Shown here piece by piece: positions 55,836-64,000 of a DNA stretch of 64,000 bases (position 1 is the first letter of the stretch; each line of letters begins with the position of its first letter). Made by a program: the position numbers and the translations under genes. Source of the stretch: Nitrososphaerota archaeon (GTDB taxonomy: Archaea > Thermoproteota > Nitrososphaeria > Conexivisphaerales > DTJL01); the NCBI GenBank assembly GCA_021324115.1, contig JAJPJS010000008.1, positions 22,160-86,159 on the forward strand, written 5' to 3'. The notes under the pieces are model-generated. The model worked only from the letters and a program-made list of their open reading frames with translations. It ran no database searches and was not told the DNA's origin.

Positions 55836-56363
55836 TTGCAAAACGGTGTACCCGACGATGCAAGTCGTCTCCGGCCTCCTTGGCGTGTTGCCTTCAAGCA
55901 GTTTCTTGTTGGTGTTCCGTGCGAACTCTTCGGAATCGGGAATCCGATAAAGGGAGATGACTCGGCTGGACTATACATAATTAAACAGTTGCGGAGAATG
56001 AACGGTAAAAGACCGAGAAAGAATATCATAATTCATGGTGCAATAACTGCTCCTGAAATTACCCCCCCTAGGTCTTTTTTCAAAGAATCGAGAATTATAA
56101 TATTTGACTCTGCAGAGTTGAACTTGAAACCTGGTAGCATTGCCCTGGCAAATATATCGGACACCAGATATGGATTCTTTTCCACACACAACATTCCGCT
56201 AAAGCTGGTTTCTTCATTTTCTTCGAACCCATCAAGGGTTTGGATACTCGGCATTCAGCCCGAGGATGTATCCGTAAGCGAAAGACTATCTGATACAGTC
56301 AGGCAATCGGCAGATGAGGTAATTACTTTTGTCGGAGAAATCCTAAGAGGTGAAGAAGAATGA
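55836..56363 (+). CDS. hycI: [NiFe]-hydrogenase maturation endopeptidase (HycI family)
   Basis: 175 residues. The family signature GIGNPIKGDDSAGLYIIKQL lies near residue 33, with the Asp that binds nickel; a later acid (FDSAELNLKPGS) and histidine (FSTHNIPLKLVS) complete the metal site. The protease removes the C-terminal tail of the hydrogenase large subunit after Ni insertion. TTG 55836 is provisional; CTAATAT at 55794-55800 could be its TATA box. It overlaps the next gene by four bases, making it the first gene of the operon and indicating that the complex downstream is a true hydrogenase rather than complex I. Confidence 0.9.
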   Translation: MQNGVPDDASRLRPPWRVAFKQFLVGVPCELFGIGNPIKGDDSAGLYIIKQLRRMNGKRPRKNIIIHGAITAPEITPPRSFFKESRIIIFDSAELNLKPGSIALANISDTRYGFFSTHNIPLKLVSSFSSNPSRVWILGIQPEDVSVSERLSDTVRQSADEVITFVGEILRGEEE

Positions 56364-56704
56364 GCACAGTAGATGTCATTCTTGCGCCTCTTCTGGTTAT
56401 CCTGGTTGACGTAGTTGTATTCTACCTTTTCGGCAGAATGGGCAAGAAGAGTTCTGGCGAGGGAACCAAGTACGAACCCTTCACAGGGGGCGAAAGGGAC
56501 GTTCCCACGCGAGGGCTTTATCAGTCAAACCTGTTCGTCTTTGCTGCCCTGTTTCTGGTCGTCGAAGTATTCGCACTGATCCTCGCCGGTTCATACCTCG
56601 CTCCGGGCCCCTACTACCCACTTCTGTTTTTGCTTGGAGGAAGTGGAGCTATTCTGCTTGTTGTTTGGTGGCTTATAATCATCGGAGGCGTTAGATTCAC
56701 TTGA
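56360..56704 (+). CDS. NuoA-like membrane subunit
   Basis: 114 residues with three hydrophobic helices. KYEPFTGGERDVPTRGLYQS followed by NLFVFAALFLVVEVFALILA corresponds to the conserved loop and helix of complex I subunit A (normally YECGF and an FDVE motif). Such a subunit is usual in complex I but rare in group 4 hydrogenases, so its presence is notable. It is coupled to the preceding maturation protease (4-base overlap) and to the small subunit gene. Confidence 0.75.
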   Translation: MSTVDVILAPLLVILVDVVVFYLFGRMGKKSSGEGTKYEPFTGGERDVPTRGLYQSNLFVFAALFLVVEVFALILAGSYLAPGPYYPLLFLLGGSGAILLVVWWLIIIGGVRFT

Positions 56705-57138
56705 CCCTAAAGGATTGGGCCAGGAAAAAATCAATATGGGTCTTTGATGTCAATGCCGCGTCTTGTAACGGTTGCGATATAGAAATACTCGATGCATTCA
56801 CACCTCGCTATGATGTGGAAAGAATTGGTGTTGTACTGGTACCAAGCCCAAGGCATGCAGATGTGCTTCTTGTGACAGGCACTGTCAACGCCATGATGAA
56901 GGATAGACTCAAAACCATTTACGAACAGATGTCGGAGCCCAAGTACGTGGTTGCAGTTGGCGCCTGTGCCCTTGGAGGAGGAGTGTACAAGGGCTGTTAC
57001 AACGTGGGGCACGGGGTTGACAAGGTTATACCCGTGAACCTCTACATCCCGGGCTGTCCTCCAAGACCCGAGGCGATAATCTTTGGTATATTGAAGCTTG
57101 TTACTGGTGAGCCGCCTGACCCCAAGGAGGAAGAGTAG
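56701..57138 (+). CDS. Group 4 [NiFe]-hydrogenase small subunit (NuoB/HycG-like)
   Basis: 145 residues from TTG 56701. SCNGCDIEILDAFTPRYDVE has the single-spaced CxxC of hydrogenases, not the CC pair of NuoB; GACALGGGVYKGCYN and NLYIPGCPPRPEAI complete four cysteine ligands for the proximal [4Fe-4S] cluster. It passes electrons from or to the NiFe site. It overlaps the A-like gene by four bases and touches the C-like gene at 57139. Confidence 0.93.
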   Translation: MTLKDWARKKSIWVFDVNAASCNGCDIEILDAFTPRYDVERIGVVLVPSPRHADVLLVTGTVNAMMKDRLKTIYEQMSEPKYVVAVGACALGGGVYKGCYNVGHGVDKVIPVNLYIPGCPPRPEAIIFGILKLVTGEPPDPKEEE

Positions 57139-57597
57139 ATGATAGAGGAGGAGCTCTCGGCAATGGCAGCCGAGCTATCGGGCAAGCTCTCCAGGGTTAG
57201 GAAGTCTTTCGTGTTGCAGGTGAGTCCGGAAAAGGTCAAAGACGCCTGTCAACACGTTTCACAACTGGACGGGTATTACCACCTTTCGACGGTAACAGGC
57301 GCGGATATGGGAGACAAAATCTCGGTAATGTATCATTTCTGGAAGGGAAAGGAATTCGTAACGGTTGAGGCTGACGTTCCGAAGTCAGATAGACATTTAC
57401 CCAGCATCTCTTCAGAACTTCCGTCCGCTCTACTCTACGAGGCAGAAGTGAAGGACCTGCTCGGTGTTGTATTCGACGGTAACCCCCTCATGGGTACGAG
57501 GCTCCTTCTTCCCGATATCTATCCCGAAGACGCACCCCCACCTTTGACCAAGGAAGCGGATCCTGAAAAAATCAGGAAGATGATGGAGCTTGAGTGA
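57139..57597 (+). CDS. NuoC-like subunit (30-kDa subunit domain)
   Basis: 152 residues from ATG 57139. HLSTVTGADMGDKISVMYHF, LLYEAEVKDLLGVVFDGNPL and RLLLPDIYPEDAPPPLTKEA match the HycE N-terminal/NuoC family, a soluble subunit that contacts the large subunit. Its last eight bases overlap the large subunit gene, so the two are separate proteins, unlike the fused HycE. Confidence 0.9.
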   Translation: MIEEELSAMAAELSGKLSRVRKSFVLQVSPEKVKDACQHVSQLDGYYHLSTVTGADMGDKISVMYHFWKGKEFVTVEADVPKSDRHLPSISSELPSALLYEAEVKDLLGVVFDGNPLMGTRLLLPDIYPEDAPPPLTKEADPEKIRKMMELE

Positions 57598-58828
57598 AGA
57601 AGAAAAGGAAAGGAGGGAGGTTGGAGCCGGGCTGATGGAGTATTCGCCCGAAAATCTTGTACCCTTTGGTCCTGTGCATCCATCCTTGAAGGAGCCGGAA
57701 TATTTCAAACTCATTCTAGAAGGAGAAAAGATAGTCGAAGTTCATCCTAGAATAGGCTATGTGCACAGAGGGATCGAGAGGGCCGCTCAGGACAGGACAT
57801 GGGTCAAAAACATCTACCTGTTTGAGAGAATATGTGGGATATGCAGCTTTGCACACAGCCTAGCCTATACGGAGGGAACAGAATCATTGACCGAATTCCA
57901 GATACCGGTGAGGGCAAAATATCTGAGGGTGTTAATCGCCGAACTTGAGAGAATCCACAGTCATCTTCTCTGGCTAGGACTCGTTGGCTACTGGACAGGC
58001 TTTGATACACTCTTCATGTGGATATGGAAGGATAGGGAGCATGTTCTAGACCTGCTCGAAGCTATAACAGGCAACAGAGTCCACAAGTCATTTTCGACCC
58101 TCGGTGGTGTGAGAAAGGACCTGACACCGGCGCTGGTATCAAAATTGGAGGAGGAGACAAAATTTATAACAGAAAGGGTGAAGTATTACGAAACACTGGT
58201 ACACTCGGAAGAAACACTTGTTAGCAGGACAAGAGGCGTTGGCAGGCTGACCAAGGAAATAGCTGAAAGATTGTGTCCTGTAGGTCCGCTTCTCCGTTGC
58301 TCAGGTATTGACAGAGATGTCAGGAAGGAGGACCCGTACGCTGCTTATGAATTCATTCAACCCGAAGTCAAGACTTCAAACGCCGGGGATATAGAATCCC
58401 TTCTTTCTATAAGACTGGCGGAGGTCACAGATTCGTGCAGAATGATTTCTGAAGCTCTTGACCGCTTGCCTGAAGGTCCGGTAAGGGTACCTTTCCCAAG
58501 AATAATCCCCCGGGGGGATGCATTCTTCCACGTCGAAGCTCCAAGGGGCGAACTCTTTTATTTCATAAGGTCCAACGGGACACCCAAACCCGAGAGGGTC
58601 AAAATAAGGACTCCAACATTAGCCAACCTGCTTACAGCGGCGGAAATGCTCAAAGGAAGACCCCTTGCAGACGTTCCGGTCGTTCTGACTGGGATAGACC
58701 CCTGCTTCGGCTGCATGGATAGGGTCACTGTGATAGACGTGGACAAGAGTAAGAAGTGGTCTGTCAGCGGCGAAGAGCTGAGGGTGTATGGCATAGAGTA
58801 CTACAGAAGGGGGGCGGGCAAGAGGTGA
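57590..58828 (+). CDS. Group 4 [NiFe]-hydrogenase large catalytic subunit
   Basis: 412 residues from TTG 57590. The L1 motif ERICGICSFAH gives C82 and C85; L2 is DPCFGCMDR, giving C372 and C375. These four cysteines bind the NiFe site and are lost in complex I NuoD. After R378 there are 34 residues (VTVIDVDKSKKW onward), a tail of the kind removed by HycI in HycE-type enzymes, matching the protease gene at the start of the operon. GFDTLFMWIWKDRE and IPRGDAFFHVEAPRGELFYF are also family segments. It catalyses H2 formation or oxidation, probably with ferredoxin. It overlaps the H gene by GTGA. Confidence 0.94.
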   Translation: MSEEEKERREVGAGLMEYSPENLVPFGPVHPSLKEPEYFKLILEGEKIVEVHPRIGYVHRGIERAAQDRTWVKNIYLFERICGICSFAHSLAYTEGTESLTEFQIPVRAKYLRVLIAELERIHSHLLWLGLVGYWTGFDTLFMWIWKDREHVLDLLEAITGNRVHKSFSTLGGVRKDLTPALVSKLEEETKFITERVKYYETLVHSEETLVSRTRGVGRLTKEIAERLCPVGPLLRCSGIDRDVRKEDPYAAYEFIQPEVKTSNAGDIESLLSIRLAEVTDSCRMISEALDRLPEGPVRVPFPRIIPRGDAFFHVEAPRGELFYFIRSNGTPKPERVKIRTPTLANLLTAAEMLKGRPLADVPVVLTGIDPCFGCMDRVTVIDVDKSKKWSVSGEELRVYGIEYYRRGAGKR

Positions 58829-59793
58829 CTCCGATGCAGCTCCTTCAGTTGCTTGTCTTTCCTGGCCTCACCTTCTTTGTATGGATAGCATTCGCGTTTG
58901 AATGGCTCGAGAGGAAGACAGCTGCAAGAATGCAGGGCAGAGTCGGTCCGATGATTGCCGGTCCGTTTGGCCTTTTGCAACCGGTCGCAGACTTTCTGAA
59001 GCTGGCATCTAAGGAGCAGATCATACCGAAGCACTCAGAGAAGTTCGTTCTTACATGGGGCCCTCCCCTGTATTTCGCTGCACCAGCCATCGGGATCATC
59101 TTCATCCCTGTGATCGGTAACGAGTCGATAATCGGCCACCCCCTTGACCTTCTCTTTGTCCTCTTTGTCCTCGCCTTTTCGACCCTCATGGCTTCCCTCC
59201 TTGGTTATTCCGCCGCAGGGAGGTACTCAACTATTGCAGTAGGCAGGCTGGTCGTACAGTACACCAGCTACGAGATACCGCTGATCCTCTCCGTTATCTC
59301 ACCTGCTATTCTTGCGGGGAATCTTTCTCTCGGTGGTATAGTTTCCGCACAGTCAAATTATTGGTTCATATTGTCTGCCCCCATTGGGTTTGCCGTCTTC
59401 ATAATTGCTTCTCTTGCGGAGTTGGAAAAGCCGCCCTTTGACATCCCCAGTGCGAAGACAGAGATAGTCGGTGGCTGGATGACTGATTTTTCAGGGAATG
59501 CCTTGGCGTATGTAAAGCTGACGAAGAACCTTAGCTATGTATTTCTCTCTGCTCTCGCCGTAACTCTTTTTCTTGGAGGACCAAACGGACCCGTCCTCTT
59601 TCATCAAATAATTCTGCAATATGTAATGAACACCATTTATTTCATGGTCAAGCTATTCTCTGTGGGTTTTCTTATCTTCGTGGTCAAGACGGCGCTGGCA
59701 AGAATAAGGATTGACCAAGCCGCAGAGCTTTTCTGGACGATTCTAACTCCATTAAGCCTTGCGCAGCTGGGCCTGGTCATACTTCTGAGGTGA
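58825..59793 (+). CDS. NuoH/HycD-like membrane subunit
   Basis: 322 residues from GTG 58825; ATG 58834 is an alternative. Eight or so helices; FAFEWLERKTAARMQGRVGP is the conserved ERK-RxGP loop and LEKPPFDIPSAKTEIVGGW the family's loop 5. This subunit connects the catalytic arm with the proton/sodium channels and lies near the quinone- or ferredoxin-side entry. It overlaps the large subunit and the ferredoxin subunit by four bases each. Confidence 0.93.
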   Translation: MTPMQLLQLLVFPGLTFFVWIAFAFEWLERKTAARMQGRVGPMIAGPFGLLQPVADFLKLASKEQIIPKHSEKFVLTWGPPLYFAAPAIGIIFIPVIGNESIIGHPLDLLFVLFVLAFSTLMASLLGYSAAGRYSTIAVGRLVVQYTSYEIPLILSVISPAILAGNLSLGGIVSAQSNYWFILSAPIGFAVFIIASLAELEKPPFDIPSAKTEIVGGWMTDFSGNALAYVKLTKNLSYVFLSALAVTLFLGGPNGPVLFHQIILQYVMNTIYFMVKLFSVGFLIFVVKTALARIRIDQAAELFWTILTPLSLAQLGLVILLR

Positions 59794-60194
59794 TTCACTT
59801 GTCCAAGAAAAGAATAGGCAAGGCACTGGGTGAAATGTTCAAGACCGCCATGGAGGAACCTGTAACCGTAAAGTATCCCTTTGGTGCTGTAATCGTCGCT
59901 GAGCGTTTCAGAGGGAAGCTCGATGTTGACCCCATCAGGTGCACGGGCTGCGGGGTGTGCGAGATAGTTTGCCCGGCCGGCGTTATAACGATGGTGCCTG
60001 TAGGAAAAAGAAGCATAGGGCAAAGGGAAATAGAAGTAAAAAAGCCTGTATTCGACCTCTATACATGCATCTCATGCGGCCAGTGTGTTGAAGATTGTAG
60101 GTTCGGCGCGCTCGCCTTGACAAACAAATTTGAATTGGCTGTATTCGACAAAGGCTCCCTCATTATGAAGAAGGCGTTAAAAGTTGTACAGTGA
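59790..60194 (+). CDS. NuoI/HycF-like 2[4Fe-4S] ferredoxin subunit
   Basis: 134 residues from GTG 59790. CTGCGVCEIVCPAG and CISCGQCVEDCRFGA bind two [4Fe-4S] clusters, separated by about 45 residues. The N-terminal RIGKALGEMFKTAME helix attaches to the membrane arm. It is the electron entry or exit chain of the complex. It overlaps the J gene by 11 bases. Confidence 0.94.
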   Translation: MIHLSKKRIGKALGEMFKTAMEEPVTVKYPFGAVIVAERFRGKLDVDPIRCTGCGVCEIVCPAGVITMVPVGKRSIGQREIEVKKPVFDLYTCISCGQCVEDCRFGALALTNKFELAVFDKGSLIMKKALKVVQ

Positions 60195-60666
60195 ACTGAT
60201 CAGTCTTATTCTCTGTGTAGGTCTTATTGTTGCATCTTTCCTGGGACTATCATCAAAAAGAGTATCGGCTTCATTGATATTTCTTTTTTATTCCAGCGTC
60301 TTCCTTGGAATGATTTTTACAGTCTTTGGAGACTCGCTTCTAGGTTTACTTCACATGGTGACATATGCGGGAGCATTATCGGTAATGCTGCTTTCGGTTA
60401 TTCTCATGACAGGTCAGTCGGACCTTTCTATGCACTCAAAAAATCTTTCTAAAATTGTTGGGGTCATCACCATAGCGGTTGCAGCTTTCGCGGCTCTGTT
60501 CATCTTCACCCACTCTGCTGGAAATTCTCAGATTTTTTCGCAGGATATCTCCCTTCAGCTGCTTTCTTTCATGTGGCAATTCAGGCCGTGGGACCTGCTC
60601 ATAATCGTGATGGTATTCATGTCTTCGATGCTCGTCTTGGCTAATCTGTTCTCCAGGGGCGAATGA
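60184..60666 (+). CDS. NuoJ-like membrane subunit
   Basis: 160 residues from TTG 60184, five hydrophobic helices. LGLLHMVTYAGALSVMLLSVILM corresponds to the conserved TM3 of complex I subunit J with its pi-bulge region. Overlap with the ferredoxin and K genes on both sides indicates translational coupling. Confidence 0.85.
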   Translation: MYSELISLILCVGLIVASFLGLSSKRVSASLIFLFYSSVFLGMIFTVFGDSLLGLLHMVTYAGALSVMLLSVILMTGQSDLSMHSKNLSKIVGVITIAVAAFAALFIFTHSAGNSQIFSQDISLQLLSFMWQFRPWDLLIIVMVFMSSMLVLANLFSRGE

Positions 60667-60983
60667 ATTTGATAACAGAACAAATTATACTTTTGATTAC
60701 GGGTATGGTTCTGCTCCTGATGGGCATCTATTCGGTCTTTACTGCGAAGAATCTGCTAAAAAGCGTGATGTCTTACCAGGTTGCCGTCTTCGGTGTTAAT
60801 CTCACCTTATTCTCTTCAAGTCTTTCCTTTATTGGGATGCAGAGGCTGCTCGGCGATACTTTCGTGTTCATCTCAATAGTCGTGGGAGCTGCGGTCGAAG
60901 TTGTTGGCTTGGCCATAGTCGTGGCTGTTTTCAGAAAATTCGGGACACTTAATCCAGCAGAGATCAGGAGGCTGATCCATTGA
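60663..60983 (+). CDS. NuoK-like membrane subunit
   Basis: 106 residues and three helices, the length of NuoK/MrpC. LLMGIYSVFTAKNLLKSVMS and the later VGAAVEVVGLAIVVAVFRKF carry the glutamate (AAVEVVGLA) used in proton transfer. It overlaps the L gene by four bases. Confidence 0.92.
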   Translation: MNLITEQIILLITGMVLLLMGIYSVFTAKNLLKSVMSYQVAVFGVNLTLFSSSLSFIGMQRLLGDTFVFISIVVGAAVEVVGLAIVVAVFRKFGTLNPAEIRRLIH

Positions 60984-62704
60984 ACCAAATTCTTTCATTT
61001 CTTCCTTGGTCCTTTTGGCTGCTCCCTCTCTTTTCTGTTCCGTTTGCTCCATTGGTGGCCAGGGGTGGGCACAAGGCTGTCTGGAGTTACAGCATGGCCG
61101 TGGCAACGACTTCACTCCTTTTTTCTGCTTTCAGTGCATACACATTCGAATCAGCCAATAACCAAGTACTGACAGAATGGGTTCGATTCCTCTCCGTTCC
61201 ATTGGAGATAACCATTGATGGTCTTTCGCTCCTTGTATCCGTTGTTGTCTCATTCCTTGTCATGCTGGTAGTAATATATTCCCTAGCATACATCAAAGGT
61301 GGTTACGGTCGATACTACTCGCTTATCCTTCTTTTTGCAGGATCCATGCTGGGCCTCGTAATGGCAGGGAACTTGATTCAATTCTACTTCTTCTGGGAGC
61401 TGGTTGGTATATGCTCTGCTCTACTCATAGCCTTCTGGCACGACAGGGAAGCAGCAAGAAAGGCTGGAATGAAGGCTTTTGTTGTTACCAGGATTGGTGA
61501 CGCCTCTCTTCTTGTGGCGATATTCATCGCCTACTCCGTACTTGGCGTAACCAGCTTCACAGGCCTTCTGAATGGCCTCAATAAATTTTCAAGCAATTAT
61601 CTTATGATATTTGGAACACTTGTGTTCATAGGCGCTATGGGCAAGTCTGCCCAGGTGCCTTTGCATGGATGGCTTCCAGATGCGATGGAGGGTCCGACAA
61701 CGGTATCTGCACTGATTCATGCGGCCACAATGGTCAATGCAGGAGTTTACCTCATCATAAGGCTCGCTCCTCTGTACGGGTCCAGTGTCTTCCTGTCATA
61801 CCTGGTTCTTTCAATAGGCCTTCTTAGCGTATTCGTGGGAGGGCTCGGAGCACTCGGAGCGGATGACATAAAGAGAGTCCTCGCTTATTCGACCATAAGT
61901 CAACTGGGTCTTATGTTTACTGCAATCGGCCTGGGGTCAGCGTCATCCGCAACTTATCATTTACTTTCACAGGGTCTCTTCAAGGCACTTGGCTTTCTCT
62001 CCGCAGGCGCGATAATAGAGACCTTGGGAACAAGGAACATGAATGCTATGGGCGGGCTTTGGAAATCCATGAAGTTGACATATTTAGGTTTCCTTTTGTC
62101 TGTCCTCGCAATGTCCGGCCTGCCTCCTCTCGTCGGATTCTGGAGTAAGGAATCGATCCTATCCGCTGCGGGCGGAGGGGTTATCTCATATGTAATTATT
62201 CTATCATCGGTCCTGACATCTCTATATTCGTTCCGAGCACTGATCAAGGTTTTTCATGGCAAACCAAATTTCTCCTCTACTCCTCACGACCCTCATCTCA
62301 GCATGGCTCTACCGATACTCATTTTAGCCATATCTGTTGTGATTGGTTCAGCATTTCTATCCTCCCAGCATTTGGTCAATTTTGTCTCTTTTCTGCCTTA
62401 CACAGCCTACATCATTTCATTTGGAATAGTGGTCTTGGGCATCCTACCCGACTGGTTGGCCTTTCAACTGTATCCGTTACGATTTGCTAGTGCAGTTACG
62501 AACAATTCGGTACTGAAATCATTCAAGAACTTTCTGCTGGGAGGACTGGGTTTTGATGGTATTTACAGGTCAATCGGCAATGCTTTCAACTCATTTTCAA
62601 ACCTTGTTGCTAGAATTCAAACTGGAATTCTTGGATACAATGTCGGTCTCCTCTTTGCCGCCCTGTTGTTAATACTTCTGCTGACTGCGGTGGGAGTGCT
62701 TTGA
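60980..62704 (+). CDS. NuoL-like antiporter subunit
   Basis: 574 residues with 14-16 helices. The Mrp-antiporter core includes FFWELVGICSALLIAFWHDR with its glutamate, GKSAQVPLHGWLPDAMEGPT and VSALIHAATMVNAGVY, and LAYSTISQLGLM with key lysine regions upstream. It pumps ions as part of the distal membrane arm. It ends in a short hydrophobic tail, shorter than the lateral-helix extension of E. coli NuoL. It overlaps the next gene by four bases. Confidence 0.94.
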   Translation: MNQILSFLPWSFWLLPLFSVPFAPLVARGGHKAVWSYSMAVATTSLLFSAFSAYTFESANNQVLTEWVRFLSVPLEITIDGLSLLVSVVVSFLVMLVVIYSLAYIKGGYGRYYSLILLFAGSMLGLVMAGNLIQFYFFWELVGICSALLIAFWHDREAARKAGMKAFVVTRIGDASLLVAIFIAYSVLGVTSFTGLLNGLNKFSSNYLMIFGTLVFIGAMGKSAQVPLHGWLPDAMEGPTTVSALIHAATMVNAGVYLIIRLAPLYGSSVFLSYLVLSIGLLSVFVGGLGALGADDIKRVLAYSTISQLGLMFTAIGLGSASSATYHLLSQGLFKALGFLSAGAIIETLGTRNMNAMGGLWKSMKLTYLGFLLSVLAMSGLPPLVGFWSKESILSAAGGGVISYVIILSSVLTSLYSFRALIKVFHGKPNFSSTPHDPHLSMALPILILAISVVIGSAFLSSQHLVNFVSFLPYTAYIISFGIVVLGILPDWLAFQLYPLRFASAVTNNSVLKSFKNFLLGGLGFDGIYRSIGNAFNSFSNLVARIQTGILGYNVGLLFAALLLILLLTAVGVL

Positions 62705-64000
62705 CCATCTTCGTTGTCACCCTGACGGAGATACTCTTCACTTCCTCGGCATTATGTCTCGCCGCGGACTTTCTAGCGAAGAAGGTCGGAATATACAGGC
62801 AGTACCTTGTAGGCCTCATTGCTTCACTGGGGGTCATGATCTCCCTGGTTACGATGCTCTCAAACTGGAAGGATTATTTAGGAAGGTCGATGATATCTCA
62901 GCCCGTTTCATCCCCTTTTTCTAGCCTCTATATCTCCAATAATTTTACACTTTTCGTTATCTTTCTTGTTCTCGTGATATCTTTCACGGTTTCTATCTAT
63001 TCGACCTTCTGGCTCAGGTCTGACAGTAACGTAGGACCATTTTATGCACTCTTGCTTCTGCTCACATGCTCTCTAGTTGGAGTAGCCTCCGCTGGAGACT
63101 TTCTGACACTTTTTCTTTTCTGGGAAGGCATGAGCCTCTCTTCCTATGGTCTAGTGAGCTTCAGAAAATCATTCGACATAACGCTTGAGGCGTCGTTGAA
63201 ATACTTCTTTATCGTGGGGCTAGGAAGCCTCATAGCGCTCTTCGGAATATCTCTAATGTATTCTCTTGTGGGCAGTCTAGAGCTCGACTCTCTGAAAAAT
63301 CTCCCGCTGGGGGATCCTATAGCCATATTGGGTCTCACGATGACATTTCTGGGATTCGGTGCGGAGGCGGCATTGGCTCCACTCCACACCTGGCTTCCTG
63401 ATGTCTACTCTGCTGCCTCTACTCCCGTGGCTGCGATGATATCAGGCGCAGTAACAGGCATGGGTGTCTTTGGGCCGATCAAAATCCTTCAACCGATAAT
63501 TTCATCGGACGCATCAGGTGTGCCAGTTAACTTCAAGCTGCTCCTTGCTATCATCGGACTAGCTACAATGTTGATAGGTAATCTGGGGGGACTTTACCAG
63601 ACAAATCTAAGGAGAATGCTCGGTTACAGTACGATCGCTCAAACGGGATATTTTGTTTCTGCGCTGTCCACGTTCAGTTTATTGGGTCTGGTTGCTGCGG
63701 TTTTCGCAATTTGGAACCATGGTATACTGAAATCTAACTTCTTCGCACTCACAGGCTCCGTGGAGGAAGGCTATGAGGGTGGAGAGCTCAACAGGTTGAG
63801 AGGAGCAGGGAGGAAGAACAAGGGTCTAGGTGTTCTATTCGTACTCTCCTCGCTTGGGATGATGGGTTCTCCTCCTTTTGGTCTGTTCTGGAGTGAGATT
63901 CTCATAGTGGAATCGCTTGTTATGGCTGGTGGTTTGTTCATAGCACTCGGAGCAGCTGTAGCCTTCAATATGGTGATATCGATCGGCTATTACTACAGAG
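62701..64000 (+). CDS. NuoN/NuoM-like antiporter subunit, cut by the window end
   Basis: Frame open from TTG 62701 to the end of the window, 433 residues seen. Helices include LFLFWEGMSLSSYGLVSF with the channel glutamate and GAEAALAPLHTWLPDVYSAA with STPVAAMISGAVTGMGVF. LRRMLGYSTIAQTGYF and SPPFGLFWSEILIVES follow. It is another Mrp-type antiporter subunit, closer to the NuoN type (PDVYSAASTPV). The end, and whether an M or another subunit follows, is outside the window. Confidence 0.9.
   Translation, partial: MTIFVVTLTEILFTSSALCLAADFLAKKVGIYRQYLVGLIASLGVMISLVTMLSNWKDYLGRSMISQPVSSPFSSLYISNNFTLFVIFLVLVISFTVSIYSTFWLRSDSNVGPFYALLLLLTCSLVGVASAGDFLTLFLFWEGMSLSSYGLVSFRKSFDITLEASLKYFFIVGLGSLIALFGISLMYSLVGSLELDSLKNLPLGDPIAILGLTMTFLGFGAEAALAPLHTWLPDVYSAASTPVAAMISGAVTGMGVFGPIKILQPIISSDASGVPVNFKLLLAIIGLATMLIGNLGGLYQTNLRRMLGYSTIAQTGYFVSALSTFSLLGLVAAVFAIWNHGILKSNFFALTGSVEEGYEGGELNRLRGAGRKNKGLGVLFVLSSLGMMGSPPFGLFWSEILIVESLVMAGGLFIALGAAVAFNMVISIGYYYR

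Follow-up and report, generated by a model that had tools for sequence, protein, structure and literature searches.

The window analyzed here is a 64,000-nucleotide stretch of a Nitrososphaerota archaeon genome (GCA_021324115.1, contig JAJPJS010000008.1, positions 22,160 to 86,159; G000:C2:22160-86159 in our genome set), an archaeal assembly of 2.14 Mb in 27 contigs that is 95% complete. Its last part is occupied by an operon with the order protease-A-B-C-D-H-I-J-K-L-N, all on one strand (window 55836-64143; Table 1), which likely encodes a group 4 [NiFe]-hydrogenase with a NuoA-type subunit. As a preliminary description of this DNA had stated, nearly every gene overlaps the next: 8 of the 10 junctions overlap by 4-11 bases, B and C abut, and a gap of 5 bases lies between D and H. 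The open reading frame (ORF) of H extends back to 58756, but the start typical of the family corresponds to the ATG at 58834. N, the last gene of the set, overruns the window end by 143 bases (L003:7860-9302).

An identical 11-gene order was found in three further genomes (L035, L046, and L047), in L046 with HypA inserted between the protease and A. The identity of D to these same-order relatives was 89, 73, and 65%, and the closest named relative in our scan was a Thaumarchaeota metagenome-assembled genome (L046). Since the same order recurs in three other genomes, the operon does not reflect chance or misassembly. The subunit identities were established by the sequence comparisons listed in Table 1.

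Table 1. Genes and features of the operon (positions in the window)
Feature	Position	Strand	Evidence
Hydrogenase maturation protease, HycI type	55836..56363	+	PF01750 1.2e-6 (over cut-off); TIGR00142 6e-21; TIGR00072 (over cut-off)
A, NuoA/ND3 homolog	56360..56704	+	Profile of 34 relatives; PF00507 in 27/34; AlphaFold2 model
B, small subunit, NuoB/MbhJ type	56701..57138	+	PF01058 1.5e-33; cysteine pattern
C, NuoC-like subunit	57139..57597	+	PF00329 6.2e-20
D, group 4 [NiFe]-hydrogenase large subunit	57590..58828	+	PF00346, PF00374; PDB relatives; tree
D, first CxxC (C82, C85), two Ni/Fe ligands	57833..57844	+	
D, CxxC of the DPCxxC motif (C372, C375), two Ni/Fe ligands	58703..58714	+	
D, C-terminal extension, 34 residues after R378	58724..58825	+	Alignment with HycE
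H, NuoH/MbhM membrane anchor	58834..59793	+	PF00146 4.1e-83; H tree
I, ferredoxin-like, two [4Fe-4S] sites	59790..60194	+	TIGR01971 6e-24; 8 cysteines
J, NuoJ-like membrane subunit	60184..60666	+	PF00499 7.2e-6 (below curated cut-off); iterative profile over relatives
K, NuoK/MrpC-like membrane subunit	60663..60983	+	PF00420 1.4e-16
L, full-length NuoL with predicted lateral helix	60980..62704	+	TIGR01974 (over cut-off); clade; AlphaFold2 model
N, second antiporter-like subunit, 480 aa	62701..64000 in the window, on to 64143	+	NuoN/MbhH-type clade

The catalytic core of a [NiFe]-hydrogenase

All four Ni/Fe ligands described earlier for D were found at their exact positions, C82 and C85 within ERICGICS and C372 and C375 within DPCFGCMDR. 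The closest PDB relatives of D were HycE (3.5e-83) and MbhL (7e-81), with NuoD matching more weakly (7.5e-69), and Glu35 of D aligned with MbhL Glu21, a residue that is key for proton reduction (PMC7684303). In the tail that follows R378, the first 26 of the 34 residues aligned with the HycE extension (to residue 404), and the tail was kept in all four members of the window lineage. It is predicted to be cut off by the HycI-type protease encoded directly upstream, in which GDDSAG, FDSAE, and STHN are presumably the D, D, and H motifs of that family.

The small subunit B reads SCNGC and not the CC pair of cluster N2, again in agreement with the preliminary description, whereas the host's own NuoB does have the CC pair. 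C22, C25, C89, and C119 of B make up the ligand set of one [4Fe-4S] cluster in the hydrogenase pattern, and I contains eight cysteines for two clusters. Together, these comparisons establish the Ni/Fe and Fe-S ligands and the presence of a cleavable tail with its protease.

A tree of D, B, H, and I from 54 taxa separated complex I from the hydrogenases (100/100), with the window among the latter in a clade with L035, L046, and L047 (100/100), which stood next to the Thermofilaceae-type loci L078 and L174 (100/100). HycE and MbhL likewise fell on the hydrogenase side. D therefore lies outside NuoD (100/100) and not inside NuoD/FpoD; it shares neither the clade of respiratory complex I nor the lack of NiFe cysteines seen there, and it retains the cysteines that Ehr proteins have lost.

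We also considered a quinone- or F420H2-type complex I (Fpo or 11-subunit type) in which the cysteines of D would be coincidental. The best NCBIfam models of B, D, and H are indeed Nuo models, those of D and H scoring below their cut-offs. However, the four ligands lie in exact hydrogenase motifs and are accompanied by the cleavable tail and the protease, the region of the NuoD quinone-site Tyr reads RICGICS in D, and D branches with hydrogenases, making such an enzyme exceedingly improbable on sequence grounds.

Subunit A and NuoA

The window A alone gave no significant Pfam or NCBIfam match. Among the members of its family, PF00507 matches reached 2.9e-9, and the profile built from 34 relatives detected NuoA/ND3 chains in the PDB (best 1.4e-11; 23 chains with E < 1e-4). 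The sole chain of another type among the matches listed was MbhI, with an E value of 0.21 over residues 8-52, so the resemblance to NuoA proposed earlier withstood this comparison, and a hydrogenase-specific subunit was not the better match. We conclude from these profiles that A is a NuoA homolog. The AlphaFold2 model of A (predicted local distance difference test score, pLDDT, 78) has three transmembrane (TM) helices at residues 3-27, 56-78, and 86-107. A lacks the lateral helix that MbhI has in the membrane-bound hydrogenase MBH; in the operon, L carries a lateral helix. The TM1-TM2 loop reads YEPFTGGE in A, Y-x-C-G-E in many relatives, and YESGQ in the NuoA of the host complex I. NuoA fixes the peripheral arm to the membrane arm, at the end used in complex I (PMC7684303), and a 2026 analysis detected no relatives of it outside complex I (PMC13399641).

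Short proteins in three other loci (L092:2446-2775, L103:1737-2066, and L182) combine a NuoA-like TM1-loop (YACGE/FACGE) with a subsequent lateral-helix-like stretch. The L103 protein matched MbhI best in the PDB (0.01), followed by NuoA (0.12). These proteins are apparent go-betweens of NuoA and MbhI by sequence, and they fit the structural argument that Loop 1 and the preceding helix are one element common to NuoA, MbhI, and MbsH' (PMC7684303).

The rest of the membrane arm

Profile searches upheld the A-, J-, and K-like identities given in the preliminary description. L fell in the NuoL clade (support 99) and N in a NuoN/MbhH-type clade (support 96). The AlphaFold2 model of L (pLDDT 84) had complex I NuoL chains as its best folds (template modeling score 0.84), and helices were predicted at residues ~499-548 between TM15 and TM16, which identifies L as a NuoL with a lateral helix, the helix being placed with moderate confidence (block pLDDT about 54-83). 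L and N are the only antiporters in the operon, in contrast to the three (L, M, and N) of complex I.

In K, the first conserved membrane Glu of NuoK is replaced by Gln, as it is in L035, L046, L047, L174, and L056 (the lineage and an Anaerolineae relative). This replacement, seen in the alignment, may affect the proton path.

Distribution among relatives

At least 578 relatives were detected in a scan of named genomes, and 80 of these loci were kept. These covered Chloroflexota, Omnitrophota, Elusimicrobiota, Spirochaetota, Planctomycetota, Bacillota, haloarchaea, Bathyarchaeota, Asgard groups, and others. A match to the A profile lay within 2.5 kb of D in 72 of the 80 loci, two of these (L092 and L103) being MbhI-like; in several of the remaining 8, the contig stops close to D. 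Cultured organisms with a NuoA-bearing locus include Longilinea arvoryzae (L062) and Halorhabdus salina (L111). Both cysteine pairs were present by pattern in all large subunits except one (79/80). The A profile also found E. coli NuoA and the NuoA of the host complex I, and it gave no match in Hyc or Hyf, nor in most Thermoproteota loci with an Mbh- or Hyc-like order. The preliminary statement that most group 4 hydrogenases are devoid of NuoA thus holds for the characterized enzymes checked (Hyc and Hyf) but fails for the uncharacterized relatives. By sequence, the NuoA-bearing arrangement is not a one-off hybrid but belongs to a large uncharacterized clade overlapping HydDB group 4g, a link made through lineages that others have assigned to that group.

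The exceptional large subunit, from Hadarchaeum (L092:3624-4775), has the first CxxC and no DPCxxC by pattern; either a true variant or an error of sequencing may account for this. Two further loci (L041 in G001 and L045 in G048) are Ehr-like: their large subunits resemble NuoD and have no NiFe cysteines, and several antiporters are encoded in the same clusters.

Evolutionary history

The term hybrid in the preliminary description could imply a chimera, formed when a hydrogenase core recently acquired the membrane arm of a complex I. The gene order is complex I-like, and the complex I genes of the host itself are divided between two distant clusters, one on contig G000:C26 (L139) with A, H, J, K, and four antiporter-like subunits and one on G000:C27 (L004) with B, I, C, and D. 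An incomplete host complex I, as B-I-C-D alone on C27 might suggest, was rejected because the other subunits lie on C26. However, H of the operon falls with hydrogenase H (support 99) and not with NuoH of the host, L and N cluster with their counterparts from L046, L047, and L174, which are relatives of the operon itself, and the operon is conserved across genomes over 89-65% D identity. H, D, B, I, L, and N of the operon all group apart from the host complex I. Since the membrane and catalytic subunits have one history, a recent splice is disfavored and we consider it very unlikely; with H, B, D, and I concordant and the arrangement widespread, the notion of a spliced operon was not borne out.

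Another possibility is that the NuoA-bearing hydrogenases represent the stem of respiratory complex I, a hydrogenase having acquired the full membrane arm before protons gave way to quinone. A quick H tree and a quick concatenated tree of D, B, H, and I both ordered the groups as complex I, NuoA-bearing hydrogenases, and NuoA-less hydrogenases, and the latter tree contained a single change of the NuoA trait. Antiporters of the L/M/N type are shared by these hydrogenases and complex I, and the idea is compatible with the mechanism proposed below. The careful tree of 54 taxa kept complex I apart from the hydrogenases but left the deep hydrogenase backbone unresolved, with two NuoA-less groups. 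In approximately unbiased (AU) tests, forcing the NuoA-less hydrogenases together was not rejected (p 0.216), whereas forcing together the NuoA-bearing ones, a constraint that would attach complex I to the NuoA-less types, cost 31.5 log-likelihood units and was borderline rejected (p-AU 0.049). A single NuoA change as proof was dropped because the careful tree opens that part of the quick tree. Because the trees are unrooted, loss of NuoA in the Mbh/Hyc types fits equally well. Together, these results lend modest support to a possible intermediate position of the NuoA-bearing hydrogenases between complex I and the Mbh/Hyc types, as the preliminary description had proposed; the quick trees favor this position and the careful tree leaves it open. 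We hold the stem origin itself only tentatively.

Proposed working of the enzyme

Judging from the encoded subunits, we consider it likely that the operon specifies a single membrane-bound complex. In this energy-converting group 4 [NiFe]-hydrogenase, B, C, D, and I would form the peripheral arm, which H and the NuoA-type subunit would dock on a membrane arm of complex I type comprising A, H, J, K, N, and L, the last two being antiporter-like pumps. Neither NuoM nor NuoE, F, or G was detected in the 10.7 kb after the operon, consistent with the earlier observation that E, F, and G are missing up to position 64000. As no NuoE, F, or G lies near the operon, ferredoxin is the likely partner. Electrons would pass from reduced ferredoxin through the two clusters of I and the cluster in B to the Ni-Fe site of D, where protons would be reduced to H2, or the reverse. 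The redox step could shift loops between D, B, H, and the TM1-TM2 loop of A, and a charge signal running via J, K, N, and L, linked by the lateral helix of L, would drive outward ion pumping. The most likely function, comparable to that of MBH but with a complex I-type arm and two pumps, is to couple ferredoxin:proton oxidoreduction to ion pumping. The host genome contains four POR-type matches, possible ferredoxin reducers, and two heme-copper oxidase genes, so that H2-driven ferredoxin reduction is also possible. Assembly into one complex, the ferredoxin partner, the direction of the reaction, the ion species, and the pumping are what we infer.

The following observations weigh against this hydrogenase reading. 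A Foldseek search of the A model against the PDB gave no significant match; because three membrane helices offer little fold signal, the NuoA homology of A rests on profiles, position, and motif. The host looks respiratory (COX1 and its own complex I), which is an unusual setting for ferredoxin-driven H2 evolution. Finally, HypD, HypE, and HypF were not found in the window genome (G000, 95% complete), its nearest relative (G001, 99%), or the L046 genome (G236).

Maturation genes and the neighborhood of the operon

The Fe(CN)2CO moiety of the Ni-Fe cofactor is considered to require HypD, HypE, and HypF (PMC12134894). HypD was clearly detected in nine other genomes with related operons and in the expected control genomes, and HypE and HypF exceeded their cut-offs only where HypD was present (all three in G237, G156, and G020; HypD and HypE in G023, G029, G032, and G238). 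The L047 genome has all three. The genomes in which they were not found (G000, G001, and G236) all keep HypA, the protease, DUF6390, and a HypC-like protein whose first residues are M(M)C.

One explanation is that this lineage has a complex without the standard Ni-Fe(CN)2CO site, the cysteines holding another metal centre or none and the complex performing other redox chemistry or decaying. The failure to detect HypD, HypE, and HypF in three genomes, set against their detection in genomes with related operons, would fit this explanation. Conversely, the cysteines, the tail, the protease, HypA, and the HypC-like gene are conserved across the three genomes (D being 89% identical between genera), which argues for continued Ni insertion and processing, and the missing Hyp genes could lie on an unbinned element. 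We therefore regard a nonstandard site as unlikely. It is also rather improbable that a hydrogenase on a complex with most of the complex I arm, including NuoA, is matured without HypD, HypE, and HypF, its iron ligands arriving by an unknown route or its iron chemistry being different.

Downstream of N lie a 105-aa ORF, DUF6390 (L003:9675-10394), a HypC-like ORF (L003:10418-10696), a major facilitator superfamily transporter, and HypA; DUF6390 and the HypC-like ORF are on the minus strand, opposite the operon. DUF6390 has a weakly HypC-like C terminus, and on plasmids of Sulfobacillus and Mycobacterium its neighbors are HypC, HypD, HypE, and HypF; from this context, it is probably a hydrogenase maturation accessory. 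DUF6390 as a stand-in for HypD, HypE, and HypF was rejected; because it occurs beside complete hyp operons, it is no obvious substitute. The 105-aa ORF (L003:9353-9670) follows N in the three same-order genomes as well (L035:14304-14642, L046:13352-13663, and L047:15617-15922) and was absent from all other loci fetched.

Comparison with known systems

The presence of NuoA in four-cysteine hydrogenases of many phyla provides living enzymes to compare for the question of whether a hydrogenase gave rise to complex I, with the same kind of membrane arm and protons in the place of quinone. If HypD, HypE, and HypF are truly absent, the question of how the Ni-Fe cofactor is assembled would have to be asked anew.

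In the open-access literature (subscription papers lay outside the search), we found no report of NuoA as a subunit of group 4 hydrogenases. Complex I-like group 4 [NiFe]-hydrogenases have already been published from Asgard archaea, and the same evolutionary idea was put forward there (PMC11291895). As far as the description of the Freyarchaeia and Atabeyarchaeia enzymes goes, they resemble the window operon in their group 4 large subunit, a NuoL-like protein with a full lateral helix, and several antiporters, but their loci additionally encode HdrABC, a group 3 hydrogenase, and ATP synthase, and that description names no NuoA homolog (PMC11291895). Given that account and HydDB group 4g, any suggestion of a wholly new kind of enzyme in the preliminary description was too strong.

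Group 4g is a loose HydDB class of unknown function (PMC5037454), termed polyphyletic in the Asgard account (PMC11291895). Lineages that others have assigned to it, Endomicrobia (PMC11257099) and Omnitrophota (PMC8542988), occur among our relatives (L106, L053, and L061). The membrane arm of group 4g in Omnitrophota has been described as Mrp-linked (PMC8542988); our results suggest that this label does not fit many group 4g enzymes.

E. coli Hyc and Hyf (group 4a) are alike in that HycE is the best PDB match of D and has a homologous C-terminal tail with a protease; they differ in having no NuoA-like subunit, no full complex I arm, and a formate dehydrogenase partner. Pyrococcus MBH (group 4d, PDB 6CFW) shares the NiFe core, the CxxC small subunit, and an H-like anchor, and its MbhI has the same TM1-loop element as NuoA. 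However, MBH has MbhI in place of a three-helix NuoA, one pump, and an Mrp Na+ module, and its arm is docked at the other end (PMC7684303). The 11-subunit complex I and Fpo match the operon in the subunit letters A, B, C, D, H, I, J, K, L, and N and in the absence of an NADH module, whereas they have no Ni/Fe cysteines, a CC pair in B, a quinone-type site, and the M subunit that the operon lacks.

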